A stretch of 64,000 nucleotides of DNA, taken from Sphingobium nicotianae (GTDB taxonomy: Bacteria; Pseudomonadota; Alphaproteobacteria; Sphingomonadales; Sphingomonadaceae). This document shows positions 32,558 through 43,715 of the stretch, piece after piece. The stretch's first letter is position 1. Every line of letters begins with the position of its first letter. Where the stretch lies: contig NZ_JAHGAW010000010.1 of the NCBI RefSeq assembly GCF_018603885.1, forward strand, positions 124,001 through 188,000. Reading direction: 5' to 3'. The position numbers and the translations under genes were made by a program. The notes below the pieces were generated by a model. That model was not told where the DNA came from, did not search any database, and saw only the letters and a program-made list of their open reading frames with translations.

Positions 32558-33190
32558 CTACTGCAGCCGCTGGCTGCCCTGACTCTCGCCCCGCCGCATA
32601 TATTGCATGAGCTGGATCGTGAGCTCGGAGCGCTCCGGGAGGCTGGCGGCCTCCAGCAGCGCCTGCTTGGCGCCGATGTCGAAGGGCGCGATCTGCGCGA
32701 TCGCGTGGACCAGCGTCTCGTCGTCGAGCGAGGTCACGGCATCCCATTCGACGACATAGCCGAGCGCATCCGCGAAGGCGCGCGCCTCCTCCTCCAGCGC
32801 CGCGCGCTCGATCGGCGCGAGCACCGCGGGCTCATCCCCGTCCGTGTCGATCAGCTCGGCCTCGACCTGGCGAAACAGGGTCGGCACCTGCAGCTCGCGC
32901 GCGATCCGGAAGCGGGATTCACCGGCCAGGATGATGTTGAAGCGGCCATCCTCCAGCGCCTCGATCTCGGCGATGCGGCCCACGCAGCCGATCGTGAACA
33001 GCGGCGCGGGTTCACCCGGACCGCTCGGCTGGATCATGCCGATGCGCTGATCGCGGGCCATCGCCTCGCTCACCATCGCCCGATAGCGCGGCTCGAAAAT
33101 GTGCAGGGGCAGGTGCGCGCGCGGGAACAGCACGGCGCCGCCGAGCGGGAAGATGGCAAGCCGCCGCGTCGGAGCCGCGTCCTCAGGCAA
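32558..33190 (-). CDS. Lon substrate-binding-domain protein
   Basis: Protein of about 210 residues matching the free-standing LON N-terminal domain: LAIFPLGGAVLFPRAHLPLH, IFEPRYRAMV, IGCVGRIAEIEALEDGRFNI, ILAGESRFRI. No ATPase or protease domain follows, as is usual for this family. The frame is open far upstream, but sensible sequence starts at a TTG at 33190, overlapping the end of the YbbN gene by 8 bases; no good RBS is seen, so translational coupling is likely. Confidence 0.8.
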   Translation of the reverse strand: MPEDAAPTRRLAIFPLGGAVLFPRAHLPLHIFEPRYRAMVSEAMARDQRIGMIQPSGPGEPAPLFTIGCVGRIAEIEALEDGRFNIILAGESRFRIARELQVPTLFRQVEAELIDTDGDEPAVLAPIERAALEEEARAFADALGYVVEWDAVTSLDDETLVHAIAQIAPFDIGAKQALLEAASLPERSELTIQLMQYMRRGESQGSQRLQ

Positions 33191-34094
33191 AGAGGATGGC
33201 CGAGAGGCGACGGCGCTGGGCGAGCACCCACGGATCCTCCAGACCGACGACCTCGAACAGCTGGAGAAGCTGCGCGCGCGCCTTGCCCTCCTCCCAGTCG
33301 CGATCGCGCGCGATGCTCTCGAGCAGCGCGTCGGCCGCGCCGTCACGATCCCCGTTCGCCATCAGCGCCGAGGACAGCTCGAACAGCGCCTCATGATCGT
33401 CCGGATTGGCCGCGAAGCGGGCCCTGAGCGGGCCGACATCGACCCCCGGCGTCGCCGAGCGGGCGAGCGCGATGGCGGCGCGGCCGCGCTCGATCGCGGG
33501 ATCCTTGCCGATCTCGGCCGGGATCGCGGCGAGCAGCGCGTCGGCCTCGTCGGCCAGGCCCAATGCCGCGAGCGCGCGGAGCTGACCGCCGATCGCATCG
33601 GCATTGTCCGGCGCCATCTCGCTGATCTGTCCGAAGATGCTCAGCGCCCGCTCCGCATCGCCCGAGGCGAGCACCTCTTCGCCCATGGCGAGCAAAGGCG
33701 CGATATCCTGCGCGCGCTGGCCGGCTTCGCTCTCGATCGGGAGCTGCGACAGGATCTGGTCAAGCATCTGGCGATACTGGCCCTCGGTCCGTGCCTGCGA
33801 GAGATCGGCGACCGGCTGGCCCTGGAAGACGGCATAGACGGTCGGGATCGACTGGACGCGAAACTGGCTGGCGATGAAGCGGTTCTCGTCGACGTTGATC
33901 TTGACCAGCAGGACGCCGCGATCGGCATATTCGGCCGCGATCTTCTCGATGATCGGCGAGAGCTGCTTGCACGGGCCGCACCATTCCGCCCAGAAATCGA
34001 CGATGACGAGCCTGGTCTGCGACGGGTCCACGACGTCGCGGCGGAACGCTGCAACGGCCTGCTTGTCACTCTCGCTCAACCCCAGGGTCGCCAC
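33183..34094 (-). CDS. ybbN: YbbN-type thioredoxin/TPR co-chaperone
   Basis: Protein of 303 residues with an N-terminal thioredoxin fold (about 1-110; WAEWCGPCKQLSP keeps both active-site Cys, unlike E. coli YbbN with SxxC) and a C-terminal helical region of TPR-like repeats (about 130-290; GEEVLASGDAERALSIFGQI). YbbN proteins protect or deliver clients to DnaK/GroEL. It overlaps the Lon-domain gene and is convergent with tRNA-Gly. Confidence 0.88.
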   Translation of the reverse strand: MATLGLSESDKQAVAAFRRDVVDPSQTRLVIVDFWAEWCGPCKQLSPIIEKIAAEYADRGVLLVKINVDENRFIASQFRVQSIPTVYAVFQGQPVADLSQARTEGQYRQMLDQILSQLPIESEAGQRAQDIAPLLAMGEEVLASGDAERALSIFGQISEMAPDNADAIGGQLRALAALGLADEADALLAAIPAEIGKDPAIERGRAAIALARSATPGVDVGPLRARFAANPDDHEALFELSSALMANGDRDGAADALLESIARDRDWEEGKARAQLLQLFEVVGLEDPWVLAQRRRLSAILFA

Positions 34095-34325
34095 GTTGTC
34101 TTCTCCTGCTGCGCTCGCTGTTTTCGCGGTGCGATCACGGCTCTGCCGGGGCCGTCCGCCCCACCCGAAACCACGCCTGCGCGCTCATATGGGGTGGAAT
34201 GCGCCCGCTTCGCAAGGGCATGCGGGATTCTTTGGAAAAGGTGGTAAAAGGGACTTGCCGCCCCACAGGCGCGATGCTAGGTGCGCCGCTCACCCGTCGC
34301 CGGGCCTGCCCGAGCGACCGCCAGA

Positions 34326-34400
34326 GCGGGCGTAGCTCAGGGGTAGAGCACAACCTTGCCAAGGTTGGGGTCGAGGGTTCGAATCCCTTCGCCCGCTCCA
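34326..34400 (+). tRNA. tRNA-Gly (GCC)
   Basis: Seventy-five bases with a complete cloverleaf: acceptor GCGGGCG/CGCCCGC (34326-34332, 34390-34396), D-loop AGCTCAGGGGTAGAGC, anticodon stem CCTTGCCAAGG with anticodon GCC at 34358-34360, T-loop GGTTCGAATCC, discriminator T and an encoded CCA. Its 3' end is the presumed integration site of the adjacent element. Confidence 0.97.
34386..34400 (+). repeat. Putative att site, left (tRNA 3' end)
   Basis: 15-base segment covering the T-arm end, acceptor strand and CCA of tRNA-Gly; 14 of 15 bases match the copy at 36522-36536. Confidence 0.65.
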
Positions 34401-34401
34401 A

Positions 34402-34422
34402 ATCTTGGGATTCTCCCAAGAT
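34402..34422. other. Perfect 9-bp hairpin just after tRNA-Gly
   Basis: ATCTTGGGA (34402-34410), loop TTC, TCCCAAGAT (34414-34422), starting two bases after the tRNA CCA. No T-run follows. It may define the tRNA 3' end or be part of the element border. Confidence 0.5.
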
Positions 34423-34458
34423 ATTGAAAAACAAGTGCAAAAAATGGCGATTTCTGCC

Positions 34459-34476
34459 TGTGTAGGAATTGTGTAG
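34459..34476. promoter_or_regulatory. Putative integrase arm-type site pair, left
   Basis: TGTGTAG at 34459-34465 and 34470-34476, separated by 4 bases (period 11). The same 7-mer pair with C for T occurs twice at the other end of the element, the arrangement expected of recombinase arm-binding sites. Confidence 0.45.
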
Positions 34477-34526
34477 AAATTTTTGCGGATTTGTTTGCTG
34501 TGAGGTCCGCAAAGAATTCTTGCGCC

Positions 34527-34823
34527 TCACCCAAATAGCTCGCCCTGTCTGCTAGCGGCGTTGTGCGCCTGCCATTCCGGGTTGGTTGCTTCCTCGTCCA
34601 GCCATGCTTTTACCTGCGCAACAACATCGCCGCCCAATGCCTCGACCGTTCTGGGCTGGTGGAAATGCGAGAGATAGCCTGTGCCGGTGATTGGCAGCGG
34701 TGCTCGTTCGGGCTTGATGCTGCGGATTTCCAGATGAGCGATGACGCCGCCCCATTTATGCGGGTGATAGATGGCCTCGATTTCGATGCCCTGCCATGTG
34801 AAACGATAGGTTTGCGGCTCCAT
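34527..34823 (-). CDS. Hypothetical protein of integrative element
   Basis: Protein of 98 residues beginning MEPQTYRFTWQGIEIEAIYH, with two tryptophan/aromatic beta-like stretches and a charged C-terminus ending QGELFG. The ATG at 34823 lies immediately after the stop of the integrase-ArdA gene (TGA at 34825-34827), so it is in the same transcript. The longer frame upstream overlaps the fusion gene and is not chosen. No family recognised; position after ardA suggests conjugative-element cargo. Confidence 0.6.
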   Translation of the reverse strand: MEPQTYRFTWQGIEIEAIYHPHKWGGVIAHLEIRSIKPERAPLPITGTGYLSHFHQPRTVEALGGDVVAQVKAWLDEEATNPEWQAHNAASRQGELFG

Positions 34824-34824
34824 A

Positions 34825-36390
34825 TCAACGCGCCGCGAACACATGCACCACGTCCCACGCGGTCTTGACCGTGAACAGGTCGCCGTTGAGTTCTGCATCG
34901 CGCGCCATCGCCTGCCAGTCGATATAGAAGCGAAGCGATGCGGGAACGGCGGCGGTTTCCTCGGTCACGTCCTGCACATAGTCGGCAAGACTTGCATATG
35001 CACCGAGGTAGCAGTCGCTCAGCGCCTCCTGTGCCTCTTCCAAATCGCCACTGTAATGGTCAAGCACTGCCGCGCCTAACGCGCCATGCTCGGCAATGAA
35101 CGCGGCTAATTCCGCCACACGGTCGAGGCTGGCGTGTTCGCTGATACGCAGTGCGCCAAACCCTTCGTAATCATGAATTGCATATTCTTCGGCGTCGGCG
35201 ATCGGGGACGCGGCCAGCATGGACTCGACATCGCCCCATAGTGCCCAAGGCTCGCGAGCGGCGTCTATCCAAGTGCCATGAATGTAGCCGTTATTGTATG
35301 CCGCAAGGCAGGCCACATAGATGCGGGGTTGTTCGGTGGCGGTGAACGTCGCATAGGTGTGGCGGAAGCAATAGGTGGTGCGGGGAATGCCGCTCGGTCC
35401 GTCGCGGAGCTTGGCATATTTCAGCAGCTCCTCGACGGTATCGCGGTAAAGCCAGACGGCAGGCTTGCCGTTGATGATGGTGAAGACGGGATCATCGGGC
35501 TTGGTGGCTTTTGAAAGCGCGCGCACGCGCTCAAGATAGTCGCCGACACTCTGAGGTGCGATGAGTTGGCGCGTCTTGCCCTTGCCCTGCACGAAGATAA
35601 CCAGAATGTCGTTGCCGTCTTTGTCCTTCGCTTTGGTGACGTCACGCCAGCGCAGATTCTTGGCCTCGGGCGGACGCATGCCGGTGTTGCACATGATGAG
35701 AATGAAGTTGTAGCACATCTGGCGATACCAGACGCCTTGGGGTGTCGTGGCTTCCTTCATCCACTTGCGCCCCGTCGTGTGCAGCTTGCGATATTCCTCC
35801 AGCGTGAACTCGTCACGCCGCGCGGATTTGAGCTTGGGCATCCCCTCGAACCGATGGCTGGCAGGCACATATTTCTTGCTGATGGCGAAATTCATGATCG
35901 CCGCAAAAATGGTCATCTCGATGCGGATGGTTGAATCGCTGATGATGGCGTTGCGACGACCGGTGCCGTTCTCCCGCCGCCACAGCGGATAATCCGACCA
36001 GCGATCCTGACCGATCAGATGCACCTGCGCGCTGCCCACATAGGCGTTAAGTGGGCCAGCCACCTTATTTTTGATATTCATCGCGCGCGCCTGGCTGATC
36101 TCGCCAGCATTGGCGCGCCGTTGCTGCGCTTCGGCATATTCCTCGGCAACCTGAAGGAAGGGCCGATTGAACACAGGAACATCGTGCTTCACCCGGAAAC
36201 GGATGTCGGCATCCTGATCCATCGCGCGGTCGCGCGCAGTCTGCCGATCCGCCGTGTGCAGCGAGATTGTCTTGTAGCGATCTTCGTTCTGGATTCTCAC
36301 CCGACAGTAGAAATTGCTGTGCCCGACATCGCCACGGCGGAAGATGATGAGGCCGGGCTTTATCTGCTCCTTGTCGGTGATGAATTTCAT
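34825..36390 (-). CDS. Tyrosine recombinase fused to ArdA antirestriction domain
   Basis: Chimeric protein of about 521 residues. Counting from the upstream GTG at 36405, residues about 1-354 are a tyrosine integrase: an arm/core-binding part, then NTGMRPPEAKNLRWRDV with catalytic Arg I and TTYCFRHTYATF with Arg II. Right there (near base 35343) the integrase stops: the LGH and final Tyr region is missing. Residues about 360-526 are nearly a whole ArdA: RIYVACLAAYNNGYIHGTWI, EEYAIHDYEGFGALR, VPASLRFYIDWQAMARD. ArdA is a DNA mimic that inhibits type I restriction enzymes. The recombinase is expected to be inactive; the ArdA part may still work. ATG 36390 preferred over GTG 36405. Confidence 0.85.
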   Translation of the reverse strand: MKFITDKEQIKPGLIIFRRGDVGHSNFYCRVRIQNEDRYKTISLHTADRQTARDRAMDQDADIRFRVKHDVPVFNRPFLQVAEEYAEAQQRRANAGEISQARAMNIKNKVAGPLNAYVGSAQVHLIGQDRWSDYPLWRRENGTGRRNAIISDSTIRIEMTIFAAIMNFAISKKYVPASHRFEGMPKLKSARRDEFTLEEYRKLHTTGRKWMKEATTPQGVWYRQMCYNFILIMCNTGMRPPEAKNLRWRDVTKAKDKDGNDILVIFVQGKGKTRQLIAPQSVGDYLERVRALSKATKPDDPVFTIINGKPAVWLYRDTVEELLKYAKLRDGPSGIPRTTYCFRHTYATFTATEQPRIYVACLAAYNNGYIHGTWIDAAREPWALWGDVESMLAASPIADAEEYAIHDYEGFGALRISEHASLDRVAELAAFIAEHGALGAAVLDHYSGDLEEAQEALSDCYLGAYASLADYVQDVTEETAAVPASLRFYIDWQAMARDAELNGDLFTVKTAWDVVHVFAAR

Positions 36391-36405
36391 CTCTTCGCTT
36401 CCCAC

Positions 36406-36423
36406 TGTGCAGAAACTGTGCAG
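36406..36423. promoter_or_regulatory. Putative integrase arm-type site pair, right inner
   Basis: TGTGCAG at 36406-36412 and 36417-36423, period 11 bases, directly upstream of the integrase start. Binding here could also autoregulate the integrase gene. Confidence 0.45.
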
Positions 36424-36455
36424 AATGGCGAGCTAAGTACTTGATCCGCCGTGCC

Positions 36456-36473
36456 TGTGCAGGTTCTGTGTGG
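36456..36473. promoter_or_regulatory. Putative integrase arm-type site pair, right outer
   Basis: TGTGCAG at 36456-36462 and TGTGTGG at 36467-36473, again with an 11-base period. It lies about 50 bases inside the right att-like repeat. Confidence 0.4.
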
Positions 36474-36521
36474 GCGATTATAGCAAAAAATATTGTTTGT
36501 TTATAGTATTTTATTCTGATA

Positions 36522-36536
36522 CCTTCACCCGCTCCA
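36522..36536. repeat. Putative att site, right
   Basis: CCTTCACCCGCTCCA, one mismatch to the tRNA-Gly 3' end. The stretch before it (36478-36520) is much richer in A and T than the rest of the window, typical of an element border. Confidence 0.6.
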
Positions 36537-36712
36537 GATTCGATAACCTCGTGGATGAAACGGTCTCACCTGTGGCGTACCGGGAGGTGCGAGCTGATGA
36601 TCAGCAATCTGCGGCAGGAGTGATTGAGGCAGTTCCGGGTTAGGTGCAGCTCACAATGGAGCGCGCTTTGATAGTTTGGCACACTGAAGCTAAATGAGAA
36701 CGAAAGTGAGAG

Positions 36713-36776
36713 TTTGCCTTTCACAACCCCTTTAGTGAAACGCCAACGTTCTGCGGAGTGAGTCGTGAAAGGCAAA
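36713..36776. repeat. 12-bp inverted repeat upstream of fic
   Basis: TTTGCCTTTCAC (36713-36724) and GTGAAAGGCAAA (36765-36776) are perfect inverted copies separated by 40 bases. The stretch 36537-36888 has no protein gene and is AT-richer than the core chromosome. The repeat may be an operator, an RNA stem or a mobile-element scar. Confidence 0.55.
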
Positions 36777-36888
36777 GAGGCCGAGTAAGAATCATTAACA
36801 AGCCAGCGGAAATTTCAGTTATCACAAACAAGTTTGCGGAAGCCGAGAAGGCGTTACGGTTTACATAAACATCGGTGGATGATATCCG

Positions 36889-38028
36889 ATGTCCATGCCT
36901 TTGCCTTGCCAGCCCGACAGCCTGCCGCTCTCCGATCTCCGTTGGCGCGAAATTCTTCCTCTCGTTGGTCGAGCCAACGCCTCCCTTGCCCGCTATGACG
37001 GTATGCTTCAAACACTGCCGAATTCGGCAATTTTGCTATCGCCCATAACCGCAAACGAAGCGGTCCTCTCTTCGAAAATCGAGGGTACCCAAGCCACGCT
37101 GGACGAAGTCCTCGAAGCTGAGGCAGGCTTGGTCACATCTGAAACGCGACGGGGAGACATCGAAGAAATCAACAATTATCGGGCAGCGGTCAGTATTGCC
37201 GAGGCCGCTCTCGGACATCGGCCCATCACGTTGTCACTCATACGGGAGGTGCATCAGCAACTCCTGCAGGGAGTACGCGGTCGCGACAAAACGCCGGGAA
37301 AGTTCAGAGAGGACCAAAATTGGATCGGTCGGCGCGGAGATCCGATAGAAAAAGCGCGCTTTGTGCCTCCGTCCCCTCTCGTACTCAACTCGGCGCTCGA
37401 GGAATGGCAGACCTACATCGGTCTCACAACAGAAGACCCTGTTCTGCAGACCGCCGTTGCGCACGCCCAGTTTGAAATTCTCCATCCCTTCAAGGATGGT
37501 AACGGGCGGATAGGCCGAATGTTGATACCGCTCGTGTTGTATCAACGGCAGGCACTTTCGCGTCCGATGTTTTATATGTCAGAATATCTCGAAACGCATC
37601 GTGACGATTACTACGATCGTTTGCTAGGAATAACCGATCACAGAGACTGGCACGGCTGGCTGACCTTTTTCCTTCAAGGTATGATTGAACAGGCAGAGGC
37701 GAACCTCGCCAAGGTGAAAAACATACGCGATCTATACGAGGCGACTAAACGGTCTGTGGTCGATCTCACGCATTCGCAATATGCGATGGCAGTCGTCGAC
37801 GCATTTTTTACGAGGCCAATCATATCCGGAACAGCGTTTGCCCAAGCGGCGGGTTTCAACAACCGAGTGACGGCCAACAACATGCTCCGGCAGCTTGAGG
37901 GGGAGCGGATAATCACAAAAATTCGGGAAGGAAGTGGGCGAACTCCAGCGATTTACGCATTTCCCCGATTGATCAACATAGCAGAAGGGAAGGCCATCTT
38001 CAGAGAAGTAGAGCCTCGCCTCCTCTGA
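36889..38028 (+). CDS. Fic family protein, predicted AMP-transferase
   Basis: Protein of 379 residues. The Fic active site is HPFKDGNGRIGR (199-210), matching HPFx(D/E)GNGRxxR with all catalytic residues. The autoinhibitory helix SSKIEGT (61-67, Glu65) lies N-terminal, so it is a class II Fic enzyme whose activity is held off until that Glu moves. An N-terminal Fic_N-like part precedes the Fic core, and a C-terminal winged-helix-like part (about 300-360; TRPIISGTAFAQAAGFNN) may bind DNA. The usual reaction is AMP transfer to a target hydroxyl; target unknown. Codon use is less GC-rich than in core genes, pointing to transfer. Confidence 0.9.
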   Translation: MSMPLPCQPDSLPLSDLRWREILPLVGRANASLARYDGMLQTLPNSAILLSPITANEAVLSSKIEGTQATLDEVLEAEAGLVTSETRRGDIEEINNYRAAVSIAEAALGHRPITLSLIREVHQQLLQGVRGRDKTPGKFREDQNWIGRRGDPIEKARFVPPSPLVLNSALEEWQTYIGLTTEDPVLQTAVAHAQFEILHPFKDGNGRIGRMLIPLVLYQRQALSRPMFYMSEYLETHRDDYYDRLLGITDHRDWHGWLTFFLQGMIEQAEANLAKVKNIRDLYEATKRSVVDLTHSQYAMAVVDAFFTRPIISGTAFAQAAGFNNRVTANNMLRQLEGERIITKIREGSGRTPAIYAFPRLINIAEGKAIFREVEPRLL

Positions 38029-38034
38029 AAATCG

Positions 38035-38353
38035 GCCAGCCGGCCGCAGTGGGAGCGCGACCGGCTAGCTATGATGGACCGCGAGGGACGCCTGCGTGGG
38101 ATCAGGCGGCGGCCATCAGGAGACGCTCCTGATCGTTTTCGGCATGGGTACGGTTTCCGTCGTCTCAGCGGTGGTAGCGACGACTGGTGCGGGCTGGGGC
38201 CTGCGCGGATCGCGATAGATGAGCCGGCGGCTGGCCAGCACCACGGCGCCGATCGCGAGATAGACAGCCAGGGCCGTCCAGAAGCTGAAGAACATCCCGA
38301 CCGCGAACGCCGCGCGCAGATAATTGGCGCGGAAGCCGAGACCGTCGCCGATC
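38035..38353. repeat. Direct repeat flanking ars operon, copy 1
   Basis: About 320 bp strongly similar to 40617-40941 in the same orientation, covering the PspC-like coding part and its 3' flank (shared TGGGAGCGCGACCGG and CGCGAGGGACGCC). Similarity ends abruptly after GTCGCCGATCG. Small indels separate the copies and shift the reading frame at the gene's 3' end. Confidence 0.85.
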
Positions 38354-38457
38354 GTCTTGTTGGCGCACAGCATGCACAGACGATGGTGGGCGCCCTCGCT
38401 CTCGAATGGCCTGCGGCAGCGCAGACATGGCTGGATCAGCGTGTCCGGTTTCGCCAT
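38116..38457 (-). CDS. Zinc-ribbon/PspC-like chimeric membrane protein
   Basis: Protein of 113 residues. Residues 11-31 form C-x2-C-x13-C-x2-C (CLRCRRPFESE ... CMLC), a zinc-ribbon-like head; then comes the PspC-like segment IGDGLGFRANYLRAAFAVGM with one membrane helix (FFSFWTALAVYLAIGAVVLA). From the helix on it parallels the protein at 40688-41002, but its N-terminus is unrelated and its C-terminus is frameshifted: the DNA in the other frame still encodes AENDQERLLMAAA, like the paralogue end. So it is probably a recombinant, partly decayed copy. No RBS is evident. Confidence 0.65.
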   Translation of the reverse strand: MAKPDTLIQPCLRCRRPFESEGAHHRLCMLCANKTIGDGLGFRANYLRAAFAVGMFFSFWTALAVYLAIGAVVLASRRLIYRDPRRPQPAPVVATTAETTETVPMPKTIRSVS

Positions 38458-38529
38458 GCAAATCGCGCCGTAGCCGGTAGGACCGGCAGAGGACGCGATC
38501 GAGGCCCGTTGCCCACATGGGCCGCCGCG

Positions 38530-38940
38530 CTAGAGGCGCACGATTTCGCCGTCTTCCTTCGTGAAATGGTCCGGCTGGCGATCCAGGAGCGACAGGACGA
38601 CTTCGGAGGGGCGGCCGAGCTTCGTCCCCTTCGGCGTCGTGACGATCGGGCGGTTGACGAGGATCGGGTGCGCCACCATCGCTGCGACGATCGCGTCGTC
38701 CGATACGCCTTCGGCTAGCAAGCCGAGTTCGGCGGCGGGCGTGCCTTTCTCGCGCAGCAGGTCGCGCGGCTTCGCGCCCATTGCGGCGAACAGTTCGTCC
38801 AGCAGGGGCCGGGTCCAGCCGGTCTTGCGATAGTCGACGACGGTAGGAGCGTATCCGGCGGCTTCGATCATCGCCAGCGCATTGCGCGAGGTGCCGCAAT
38901 CCGGGTTGTGGTAGATCGTGATCGGGAATGTGTCGGTCAT
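38530..38940 (-). CDS. arsC: Arsenate reductase, glutaredoxin-coupled
   Basis: ArsC of 136 residues reducing arsenate to arsenite in the cytoplasm. The catalytic Cys is in ITIYHNPDCGTSRNAL (Cys15); the conserved Arg-rich substrate part is HPILVNRPIVTTPKGTKLGR. This is the glutaredoxin/glutathione-dependent family, not the low-molecular-weight phosphatase type. The ATG overlaps the aqpS stop as ATGA. Last gene of the ars operon. Confidence 0.93.
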   Translation of the reverse strand: MTDTFPITIYHNPDCGTSRNALAMIEAAGYAPTVVDYRKTGWTRPLLDELFAAMGAKPRDLLREKGTPAAELGLLAEGVSDDAIVAAMVAHPILVNRPIVTTPKGTKLGRPSEVVLSLLDRQPDHFTKEDGEIVRL

Positions 38941-40616: not shown

Positions 40617-40941
40617 ATACAGCCGGCCGGCCGCGGTGGGAGCGCGACCGGCCGGATATGATGACCGCGAGGGACGCCCGTGTGGGATCAAGCGGCGGCC
40701 ATCAGGGGAAGTTGCTGATCATTTTCGGCAATGACCGGTGCGGTTTCCAGCGTCTCAGCGGCGGTGGCGACGACAGGCGCCGGCTGCGGCTTGCGCGGGC
40801 TGCGATAGACCAGCCGGCTGGCCAGCACCACGGCACCGACGCCGAGATAGACAGCCAGGGCCGTCCAGAAGCTGAAGAACACCCCGACCGCGAACGCGGC
40901 GCGCAGATAATTGGCGTGGAAGCCGAGATCGTCGCCGATCG
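40617..40941. repeat. Direct repeat flanking ars operon, copy 2
   Basis: Partner of 38035-38353, same orientation. With copy 1 it brackets about 2.3 kb containing the whole ars operon and its operator, so recombination between the copies could delete or duplicate the operon. Confidence 0.85.
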
Positions 40942-41002
40942 CCTGGCAGATGCCCAGCATGGTGTCGCTGCGTCCGAAAATCGAAGGTTGATAGGTCTGC
41001 AT
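40688..41002 (-). CDS. PspC-domain membrane protein
   Basis: Protein of 104 residues with a PspC-like domain: MLGICQAIGDDLGFHANYLR followed by a single membrane helix FFSFWTALAVYLGVGAVVLA and a short polar tail ending PLMAAA. AGGAG lies 7 bases before the ATG. PspC proteins sense or stabilise the inner membrane under envelope stress; this short form has no PspA/B partner nearby. Intact relative of the chimeric gene at 38116-38457. Confidence 0.75.
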   Translation of the reverse strand: MQTYQPSIFGRSDTMLGICQAIGDDLGFHANYLRAAFAVGVFFSFWTALAVYLGVGAVVLASRLVYRSPRKPQPAPVVATAAETLETAPVIAENDQQLPLMAAA

Positions 41003-41244
41003 GTCTGAACTCCTGTGGCCCGGCCGTTCCCGGCCATGATGCCCTCTCCATCATGCACTCAGCTTTGCACGTGCCGTGCCAATTGGCCGGAATGGCTCTT
41101 TTCCGCCGACGCGCTAGCAAGGACGGAATGAACGCGGCCTGACCTTGGCGGATTTCACCGCTAATATTTGGGAAATTTCGCTAATTTCCGAACGATCGCG
41201 GCCCCTTGTATCGCTCGGCGATGGCCGGGAGCACCAAGAGCAGG

Positions 41245-41865
41245 CTATCGCGGACGCACGGGCCGGTTCATGCCGTCAGCTCCTGCCGATTGCGCAGGCT
41301 TGCGGATAGCGCCCGCCACCTTCCATGCGCCCGTCACCAGGCCCGCGACGAGCAAGATGTTCGCGACCATCAACAGCGTCATCATGACAATGGACGCGCC
41401 GACCGATTCATCGCGCATCCATCGGCGCAGCTGCTCGCGCTGCACGGACACGTAGAGCGCCTGGATATAATCATCCTGGAACGGCGCGATCGCGGCGCGG
41501 ATACGCGCGGAAGGATGAATGGGCACGACGAAGAAGTCGACGGTCTCGCCATGCTTGACGGCGATCAGATGACGCTCTGCCACGATGAGATAGGCCGTCG
41601 CCGCCGCGCTCCCCGCCAGAATGGTGCCGATCACCAGGAGCGCCGCCCAGCTGCTGCTCATCTTGCGGATATTCGAGCGCAGCAGGATGACGGCCAGGAT
41701 GACGCCGACCGTCATGAAGAAGCTCAGCACCTTGATGAGATCGGCAAGGCTCGGCGGAATCTGGACCAGCCCGAGCAGCAGCGCCAGAGCGGGCATCAGG
41801 GCGATCAAGGCCCCGATCGACTGGATGACGCGCCCCGTCGCGCTGATCGTCGTCTCTACTGACAT
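41245..41865 (-). CDS. Four-helix membrane protein of unknown function
   Basis: Protein of about 206 residues with four hydrophobic segments: about 12-35 (SIGALIALMPALALLLGLV), 42-62, 68-90 and a C-terminal one near 165-190 (VMMTLLMVANILLVAGLVTG). Between helices 3 and 4 lies a polar domain with VAERHLIAVKHGETVDFF. The ATG at 41865 lies 10 bases inside the end of the Pro-rich lipoprotein gene, so both are one unit. No family recognised. Confidence 0.65.
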   Translation of the reverse strand: MSVETTISATGRVIQSIGALIALMPALALLLGLVQIPPSLADLIKVLSFFMTVGVILAVILLRSNIRKMSSSWAALLVIGTILAGSAAATAYLIVAERHLIAVKHGETVDFFVVPIHPSARIRAAIAPFQDDYIQALYVSVQREQLRRWMRDESVGASIVMMTLLMVANILLVAGLVTGAWKVAGAIRKPAQSAGADGMNRPVRPR

Positions 41866-42317
41866 GACAGCGTGACCGTGACCTTCTGCGCCTCGAACAA
41901 TATCTGTCCGGGCCTGAGCCGCGCCATGCTGAGCGTTCCGGCGCAACTGGGCAGGAACACATAGCCCGTGCCGATCAGAACATCGACCGAGGTCGGGCCG
42001 AAGCGCGGCCCGAATGCCGGGGTCGCCAGGACCTTCGCCATTCGCTGCGCCTCGGTGCCGGGCATCGCGTTAAGAGCGCTGCCCGGGAGGAAATAGAATG
42101 TCGCCGCGCCGGGGCCCGCGACCGCTATGCTGCCCACCGCGGGGCGTGAAATCCCCGCCGTCGGCGGCGGAGGGGGTGGCGGCGGAGGGGGTGGAGGCGG
42201 CGGGGGCGGAGGCGGAGGCGGAGGCGGCGGAGGCGGCGGCATGGTCGCACAGCCGCCCAGCGAAAAACTTGCCGCCGCGACGAGCGTCCAGAAGGAAATT
42301 CTGGCCAAGATTGTCAT
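41856..42317 (-). CDS. Lipoprotein with 26 consecutive prolines
   Basis: Predicted lipoprotein of 153 residues. The signal ends in lipobox SLGGC (Cys23); residues 27-52 are 26 prolines in a row (bases 42162-42239, all CCN codons), then a beta-rich domain with FYFLPGSAL, GPTSVDVLIGTGYVFLPSCA and a final VTVTLSCQ. The poly-Pro segment would form a rigid polyproline-II rod lifting the domain from the membrane, and its synthesis should need EF-P. It is coupled to the four-helix membrane protein downstream. Function unknown. Confidence 0.75.
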   Translation of the reverse strand: MTILARISFWTLVAAASFSLGGCATMPPPPPPPPPPPPPPPPPPPPPPPPPPTAGISRPAVGSIAVAGPGAATFYFLPGSALNAMPGTEAQRMAKVLATPAFGPRFGPTSVDVLIGTGYVFLPSCAGTLSMARLRPGQILFEAQKVTVTLSCQ

Positions 42318-42506
42318 TTGGTTCGCCCCCGCGAAGTCGTAACCAACTCCTATCTTGGCAAGATTAGCCTATTTTGACCTTATTTTCCAGCGCGGAAGAG
42401 GTGCGCGCAACCTCTCACCTTGACGAGGCGTCCGATTACTTCATGCCATTATTGGTGAGGGGATCATCGACATGTTGCGCGGCCGCGCCGCCTACGGGTC
42501 GAGGGC

Positions 42507-43715
42507 TCAGATCATGTCGCCCAGCAGGAGGCGCGGCCTTGGCCCGCTCTCGCCACGCGCCTCGGCCATGAAGCGCTCCTTGAGCGGGCCGATCTTCTGC
42601 ACGGCGGAGAGCCCCAGCCGGCGCACCAGCGAGGCTGGCTTGCCGGGCACGTCGAACAGGCGGACGAGCCCGTCCATCATGATCGTGACGCTCAGGCTGT
42701 CCAGCGCGCGCCAGCGCTGATAGCACGCGAGCAGCTGCGCGTCGCCCGGCTCCAGGCCGGTGCGCATCCCCTCGACGATGACTTCCGCCAGCGCTGCGGC
42801 ATCGCGATAGCCGAGATTGACGCCCTGCCCCGCGATCGGGTGAATGCCATGCGCCGCGTCGCCGACCAGCGCCAGCCGCGTGTCGATGATCCGCGCGGCG
42901 CGATGATAGCCAAGCTTGTAGCTCTGCATCGGCGCGGCGAGACGGATCGCGCCGAGGAAGCTGCCCATGCGCTTCTCCGCTTCGGCGAGCCACGCATGCT
43001 CGGGGAGTTTGAGATAGGCGGCGGCATGCTGGTTGGGCACGGTCCACACGATCGCCGAGCGCGTGCCGGGCAACATGGGCAGCAGCGCGAAGGGTCCGCC
43101 GGGATAGAAAATCTCGTAGGCGGTATTCCCATGTGGTTCGTCATGGTCGATCGCCGTCACCAGAGCGGTGTGCGGATAGGACCATTGCGCAACCGGGATG
43201 CCGGCCAGTTCGCGCGTCGGGCTCCCGCGTCCTTCCGCGCCGACGAGCAGGCTGGCGGCGATCCGCGCCCCGCTCTCGAGCCGCAGCGTCACGCCATAGG
43301 CATCGCGCACGATGTCCAGCGCCCGGTCCGGCTGGAACCGGGTGACGCCGGGCGCATCCTGCGCGGTGGCGTCGATCGCCTGCCGCAGCACACGGTTCTC
43401 GACCATGTAGCCGGTCGCGCCATCCTCCGGATCGGGCGCGAAATCGAGCGCGCCGCCGGTCAGGCCCTCGCTCACCCAGATGCGGTCGATCGGGCAGTTC
43501 CTGCCCGCAAGATGGGGCGCGACGCCGATCGCCTCGAACAGCTTCCAGCTCGCGCTCGATATTGCGGAGACGCGCCCGTCGAAGCCGGGCGCCATGGTCG
43601 CGGCGGGCTTGGCCGGGTCGACGACCGCGCTGGTCACGCCGTGCCGCCCGAGCGCGATGGCGAGCGTCAGGCCGACAAGGCCGCCGCCCAGGATGATGAC
43701 GTCGAAGCGCTGCAT
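42507..43715 (-). CDS. UbiH/UbiF/COQ6-family FAD monooxygenase
   Basis: Flavin-dependent aromatic hydroxylase of 402 residues of ubiquinone biosynthesis. FAD motifs: IILGGGLVGLTLAIALGRHG at the N-terminus and VGDAAHGIHPIAGQGVNLGY near 275. Substrate-position specificity (C5, C6 or C1 hydroxylation) cannot be assigned from sequence alone because alphaproteobacterial members vary. It works at the inner membrane with other Ubi proteins. Confidence 0.88.
   Translation of the reverse strand: MQRFDVIILGGGLVGLTLAIALGRHGVTSAVVDPAKPAATMAPGFDGRVSAISSASWKLFEAIGVAPHLAGRNCPIDRIWVSEGLTGGALDFAPDPEDGATGYMVENRVLRQAIDATAQDAPGVTRFQPDRALDIVRDAYGVTLRLESGARIAASLLVGAEGRGSPTRELAGIPVAQWSYPHTALVTAIDHDEPHGNTAYEIFYPGGPFALLPMLPGTRSAIVWTVPNQHAAAYLKLPEHAWLAEAEKRMGSFLGAIRLAAPMQSYKLGYHRAARIIDTRLALVGDAAHGIHPIAGQGVNLGYRDAAALAEVIVEGMRTGLEPGDAQLLACYQRWRALDSLSVTIMMDGLVRLFDVPGKPASLVRRLGLSAVQKIGPLKERFMAEARGESGPRPRLLLGDMI

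Follow-up and report, generated by a model that had tools for sequence, protein, structure and literature searches.

What kind of gene is the long open reading frame at 34825-36405 of the 64-kb stretch of DNA analysed here (the window): a new protein in which an integrase carries an ArdA antirestriction domain, or what a deletion left of a genomic island? An earlier note, made from the letters alone, had described one uninterrupted frame running from an integrase N-terminus through the motif CFRHTYATF into ArdA, with the switch near base 35343. Both points were confirmed: a single open frame of 526 amino acids lies on the minus strand, Pfam and PHROGs agree on its two halves, and the join is at 35343/35344. 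The parts of the frame are:

34825-36405, minus strand: fusion ORF, integrase N-terminal part plus ArdA, as listed with a GTG start (Pfam and PHROGs)
35344-36405, minus strand: integrase part, residues 1-354, through the Arg II motif, without the tyrosine segment (83-91% identity to L002-L013)
34825-35343, minus strand: ArdA part (residues 355-526 and stop codon), complete domain without its own start codon (Pfam, model and PDB match)
35343-35344, no strand: deletion junction, from codon comparison with the int and ardA genes of relatives

When the protein was searched in two halves, an integrase match was obtained at residues 216-353 (Phage_integrase, PF00589; profile positions 12-138 of 172), with a Pfam score barely above the cut-off (27.4 against 27.1 bits). 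The ArdA match at residues 362-517 (PF07275) reached 143.9 bits against a cut-off of 27 and covers profile positions 1-153 of 155; the ArdA assignment of residues 360-526 therefore holds. PHROGs gave the same picture (phrog_1, integrase, 28-353; phrog_2059, anti-restriction, 359-512), and an NCBIfam search of the ORF returned zero matches. The protein probably starts at the ATG of codon 6 (36390) rather than at the listed GTG, because this ATG is present in 15 of 15 relatives examined, whereas four of them (L002, L003, L004 and L010) have no start codon where the GTG stands. It would then have 521 amino acids. The assembly holds a single match to the fusion protein.

The integrase half is 83-91% identical, up to residue 353, to the integrases of L002-L013, most of which carry sphingomonad titles. 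We compared the best 80 of 429 relatives (14 integrase loci and 66 ArdA loci), and among these the closest integrase is that of L002 (91%), found in a MAG titled Rickettsiales. The fusion shares with phage-type tyrosine integrases (PF00589) the N-terminal region and the beginning of the catalytic domain, which is kept through the Arg II motif CFRHTYATF and ends at F354. After this residue, all 12 relatives that are long enough (L002-L013; L014 and L015 were left out, as they are ended by contig ends) read on as RLSAGVDVYI..QQMGTSVKMIEQHYGHV or close variants. Unlike these integrases, the fusion lacks the whole segment, including the presumed catalytic tyrosine, the Y of IEQHYGHV, which would be the nucleophile in this family. 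The tyrosine part is thus gone, as had been claimed. A search for the C-terminal integrase piece elsewhere in the same assembly did not find it (best E 0.985).

The ArdA domain, on the other hand, is whole and should fold, since it matches a nearly full Pfam profile, its AlphaFold2 model is of high confidence and both sequence and model match the ArdA structure 2w82. The model of residues 354-526, built from an alignment with 25 relatives, reached a pLDDT of 93.5, and only the first three residues were below 50. Foldseek found 2w82_A and 2w82_B as sole matches at E ≤ 0.001 (2w82_B: E 6.3e-8, TM 0.70/0.74), and 2w82 was also the sole sequence match at E ≤ 0.1 in a phmmer search of solved structures (E 7.7e-12). 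With a net charge by residue count of -21 over its 172 residues, this half has the acidic composition of a DNA mimic; the integrase half has a net charge of +20. It shares with ArdA of Tn916 (ORF18; PF07275, PDB 2w82) the whole domain, the strong acidity and, by prediction, the fold, but 354 integrase residues replace its own start and about 3-7 N-terminal codons. The closest ArdA relative is about 76% identical. The ardA relatives compared start 9-13 codons ahead of RIYVACL, and the fusion keeps six of these; together with the start codon and what preceded it, about 3-7 codons were therefore lost at the join. The first in-frame start-like codon past the join is a GTG at residue 364, within the first strand of the modelled fold. 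Because the start codon and the preceding sequence are gone, full-length ArdA would only be possible within the int frame. The additional N-terminal sequence need not abolish ArdA, since long extensions at the N- or C-terminus are frequent in the products of ardA genes (Chen et al., 2014, PMC3969726). ArdA may also affect gene expression, as ArdA of R64 is reported to bind the repressor AllR (PMC13300388).

How the two genes came together can be read at the codon level. The int relatives have GCG ACG TTC (AGA or CGC) or close variants at the join, and the ardA relatives of the genus have GCA ACC ATC ACC (ACC or GCC). The fusion reads GCG ACG TTC ACC GCC ACC GAA CAA CCC CGC, int codons followed by ardA codons. 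About 2-3 nt in the same phase are common to int and ardA at this place, as judged from relatives, the parent genes not having been found. The join looks as if illegitimate recombination at a very short repeat had caused a deletion, and the frame would be kept across such a deletion with a chance of one in three.

The surroundings of the frame point in the same direction, as it lies between two att copies next to a tRNA gene:

34326-34400, plus strand: tRNA-Gly (gcc), integration target (ARAGORN)
34378-34403, plus strand: att copy in the 3' end of the tRNA gene, a 26-nt direct repeat 81% identical to 36514-36539
34458-34476, plus strand: arm-type-like repeat pair at the tRNA end (CTGTGTAG / TTGTGTAG, 11 nt apart), presumed role, with the same spacing to att as in L192 and L201
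34527-34823, minus strand: small conserved ORF after ardA, no known family, presumed ATG at 34823 (listed as 34527-34898)
36405-36473, plus strand: four arm-type-like repeats at the int end, starting at 36405, 36416, 36455 and 36466, presumed role
36514-36539, plus strand: att copy at the int end, direct repeat, with an att-like site in relatives

The 16-nt att core has two matches at ≤2 mismatches within the window, where 0.19 were expected, and one of 100 shuffles reached two. In all 15 relatives examined, an att-like site (≤3 mismatches) is located 114-115 nt ahead of the int frame. Of three arm-type-like repeats upstream of the int start, two are found at the same distances in 15/15 relatives and the third in 13/15. 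Both ends of the element are therefore preserved, as att copies and arm-type-like repeats match those of relatives at each end. The remnant between the att copy at tRNA-Gly (gcc) and the second one measures 2.1 kb and consists mostly of the fusion ORF, which together with the small ORF leaves only about 0.1 kb per side. Transfer genes (relaxase, coupling protein) are absent between the att copies, the fusion and the small ORF matching no transfer family.

The small ORF directly follows ardA and may act together with ArdA. No match was obtained for it in Pfam, NCBIfam or PHROGs. Its relatives, 60-74% identical, adjoin ardA in 4 of the best 80 of 429 relatives, and they do so in 7 of the 15 stretches examined, in one of these beside an ardA fragment only.

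For an empty-site comparison, the flank on the tRNA side was found in the genus but the other flank was not. Region 36540-38535 was sought in 40 other genomes of the genus and gave no match over about 280 nt; it may be another acquired piece. A Fic-domain gene (36889-38028, Pfam) is located inside this region, to the right of the int-end att copy. Also to the right of the element, a repeat of about 340 nt occurs at 38035-38374 and 40622-40961 (85% identical by BLAST; 218/340 ungapped). In the nearest relative (G084, L200:10573-13537), the region corresponding to 40781-42995 sits just past the far side of the one corresponding to 32560-34400, in opposite relative orientation, so the flanks of the tRNA-Gly of the window look rearranged against this genome.

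Intact islands of the same kind show what the remnant may have looked like before. In the one-contig genome G079, int (2052086-2053177) shares its strand with ardA (2077502-2078017). The order there is att and int, then 24.3 kb up to ardA, then the small ORF and att/tRNA-Gly (gcc) with the exact att core. G304 has this order too, with 18.3 kb from int to ardA and a tRNA-Gly (tcc), which an nSTAND-type gene separates from the small ORF. Two further contigs carry ardA downstream of int on the same strand, G220 at 15.1 kb and G001 at 7.9 kb, and no tRNA was found in the stretches examined from them. In all four contigs in which both genes are complete, ardA is thus located 8-24 kb downstream of int on the same strand. 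The related islands keep their ends apart, with att, arm-type repeats and a full-length int at one end and ardA at the other, where tRNA-Gly was present in the two islands traced that far. Scanned ORFs of the interior and tRNA-side end of G079 (9 of 18) include type III restriction-modification-type genes, an HTH protein, a T4SS coupling protein, a relaxase and an RTX-repeat protein; those of G304 (10 of 19) include MobA/MobL, a coupling-protein-like gene and methylases. By their gene content, both look like mobilizable islands. The related island of G130 (L199:3088-3225) has the same order, but its ardA is truncated differently at this end: only the C-terminal 46 residues of ArdA remain, 20 kb downstream of int on the same strand, and next come the small ORF and a tRNA-Gly (ccc).

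The remnant shares with the sphingomonad tRNA-Gly islands (e.g., G079, G304 and those with the integrases of L002-L013) the att, the arm-type-like repeats and an integrase of 83-91% identity, and with G079 and G304 also ardA and the small ORF toward the tRNA end. It differs from the intact islands in that int is full-length there and ardA is separate, 8-24 kb away in the four contigs with both genes, whereas the two are fused here; transfer and restriction-modification-type genes are present in both scanned interiors and absent from the remnant. From the layout of G079 and G304 it follows that a deletion from int into ardA yields the structure of the window. The proposal that int and ardA were brought together by a deletion within an integrative element is therefore strongly supported. 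Against it, a search for the parent island did not find it (the best identities are 91% for the integrase and about 76% for ArdA), and two of the four contigs are more distant, the integrase of G220 being only 51% identical and the ArdA of G001 only 55%, without the small ORF.

Could the join be an artefact of reads or assembly that brought two separate genes together? The assembly is a draft of 26 contigs. Nevertheless, the 2-3 shared nucleotides would be too short for an ordinary assembler to merge, the missing part of the integrase is nowhere else in the assembly, and both ends of the element are ordered as in intact islands, with their att copies. An artefact is thus almost certainly not the explanation.

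We conclude that a mobilizable tRNA-Gly island very probably lost its interior by one deletion, which made the int-ardA fusion. In this scenario, an island of the family that integrates at sphingomonad tRNA-Gly genes would have been cut at one breakpoint in int just past the Arg II motif and at another in the first codons of ardA. Both genes point in the same direction and their phases would have agreed by chance, giving one open frame. Left over would be 2.1 kb with two att copies, arm-type-like repeats at each end and a tyrosine-less integrase. The remnant should be unable to excise itself, because its integrase lacks the tyrosine segment. Full-length ArdA, if made at all, would be the tail of a truncated integrase produced from the signals of int. 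We infer a single and recent event, with recombination presumably lost and with expression and any residual antirestriction activity likewise presumed.

If the fusion were instead a stable architecture with a new role, further copies would be expected, and the earlier note had proposed to look for them in other sphingomonads. In the genus, 14 of 94 genomes match at E ≤ 1e-30, namely the source genome, five on the integrase side only and eight on the ArdA side only, and none of the 93 other genomes has the fusion (all first-look candidates were scored, except in one genome, 15 of 17). In a sample drawn from the family, with up to three candidates scored per genome, 38 of 397 genomes match and only the own genome joins both halves (0 of 396 others). 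A class sample of 385 genomes contained 11 with ArdA; the longest open frame around any other ArdA has 325 amino acids, compared with 535 here. Among 155 ArdA frames and 57 integrase frames in 278 loci, some places being included repeatedly, none has both halves. Of 197 matching plasmid records and 131 matching phage records, none had a single place that accounted for 80% of the query, and a DNA search of 34300-36700 against plasmids was likewise negative (0 of 227). The viral scan gave 60 loci, every one of which matches on the ArdA side only, and none of the viral contigs contains the exact 24-nt junction. In two viral contigs (L244:4696-7284 and L256:3466-6867) an ArdA domain lies in frames of 864 and 1135 amino acids, in which Pfam sees ArdA alone. 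No integrase-ArdA fusion was found described in the literature at the level of titles and abstract openings, which is not proof of absence from print. A stable fusion family was rejected, and a stable architecture with a new role is not supported, as no second copy occurs in the searched genomes, plasmids, phages and viral contigs.

A single copy might still be functional. The N-terminal part of the integrase could bind the arm-type sites and carry ArdA there, or the basic half could mask the acidic ArdA, and selection would then keep the frame. The frame is indeed open, neither half is decayed, the net charges are opposite and the arm-type-like repeats are retained. The integrase half has changed 1 of 226 otherwise invariant columns (relatives 0-6) and the ArdA half 1 of 46 (relatives 0-5). 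Median pN/pS to relatives is 0.150 for int, compared with 0.143 among relatives, and 0.318 for ArdA, compared with 0.350. The relatives in this test, 20 for the integrase and 24 for ArdA, were distinct sequences with E ≤ 1e-30, a query coverage of at least 97% and an identity of at least 75% or 60%, and relative pairs with pN ≤ 0.02 were left out of the median. The test is weak for a short recent branch, as pS is about 0.5-0.7 and synonymous differences are near saturation. By these values the fusion is either recent or constrained, and since a recent event and selection predict the absence of decay equally, this result does not separate the two. Of the claim that a selected antirestriction gene remained under the int promoter, the dependence of ArdA on the int frame stands. 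The claim is otherwise only partly supported, the absence of decay fitting a recent event as well as selection, and a sigma-70-type promoter scan found one site, as many as by chance (1.3 expected) and not at the int start.

Precedents for a functional fusion exist in part: ardA genes with long extensions were mentioned above, and in polyvalent proteins ArdA occurs with ArdC-N, which was proposed to recruit ArdA to incoming DNA (PMC5512222). As in the fusion, ArdA there shares its polypeptide with a further domain that presumably handles DNA. These proteins are, however, recurrent and multidomain, with ArdA mainly in Firmicutes and together with ArdC-N, whereas here a single case with a broken integrase is present; a recurrent multidomain architecture was not found, the fusion having been seen in one genome only. 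The main text of PMC5512222 uses neither the word integrase nor the term tyrosine recombinase. Further points against a function are that the catalytic domain is cut mid-way and may not fold, that a recent deletion accounts for the lack of decay, and that a type I restriction enzyme for ArdA to inhibit was not seen at home, as HsdR_N (PF04313) has no match in the own genome and matches in 9 of 14 control genomes. We regard a selected functional fusion as highly improbable. There is a very slim chance that it works as a DNA-addressed antirestriction protein, whose integrase part docks on the arm-type repeats or other DNA and holds ArdA there, or whose basic half folds onto the acidic mimic and keeps ArdA off until DNA competes. 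Such self-masking through opposite charges is conceivable as a speculation.

Most likely, the fusion is a real but one-off leftover of an island deletion, a curiosity and not a new protein class. It indicates how a long, open and plausible two-domain gene can arise when a single deletion strikes at a very short stretch of shared sequence, which calls for caution when new domain fusions are proposed from a single genome. For the family of sphingomonad tRNA-Gly islands, it points to a tRNA-side end that can carry ardA and an unnamed conserved ORF. Should the fusion prove to be made and active, it would offer a natural case in which to ask whether ArdA tolerates a large basic partner at its N-terminus or is masked by it.
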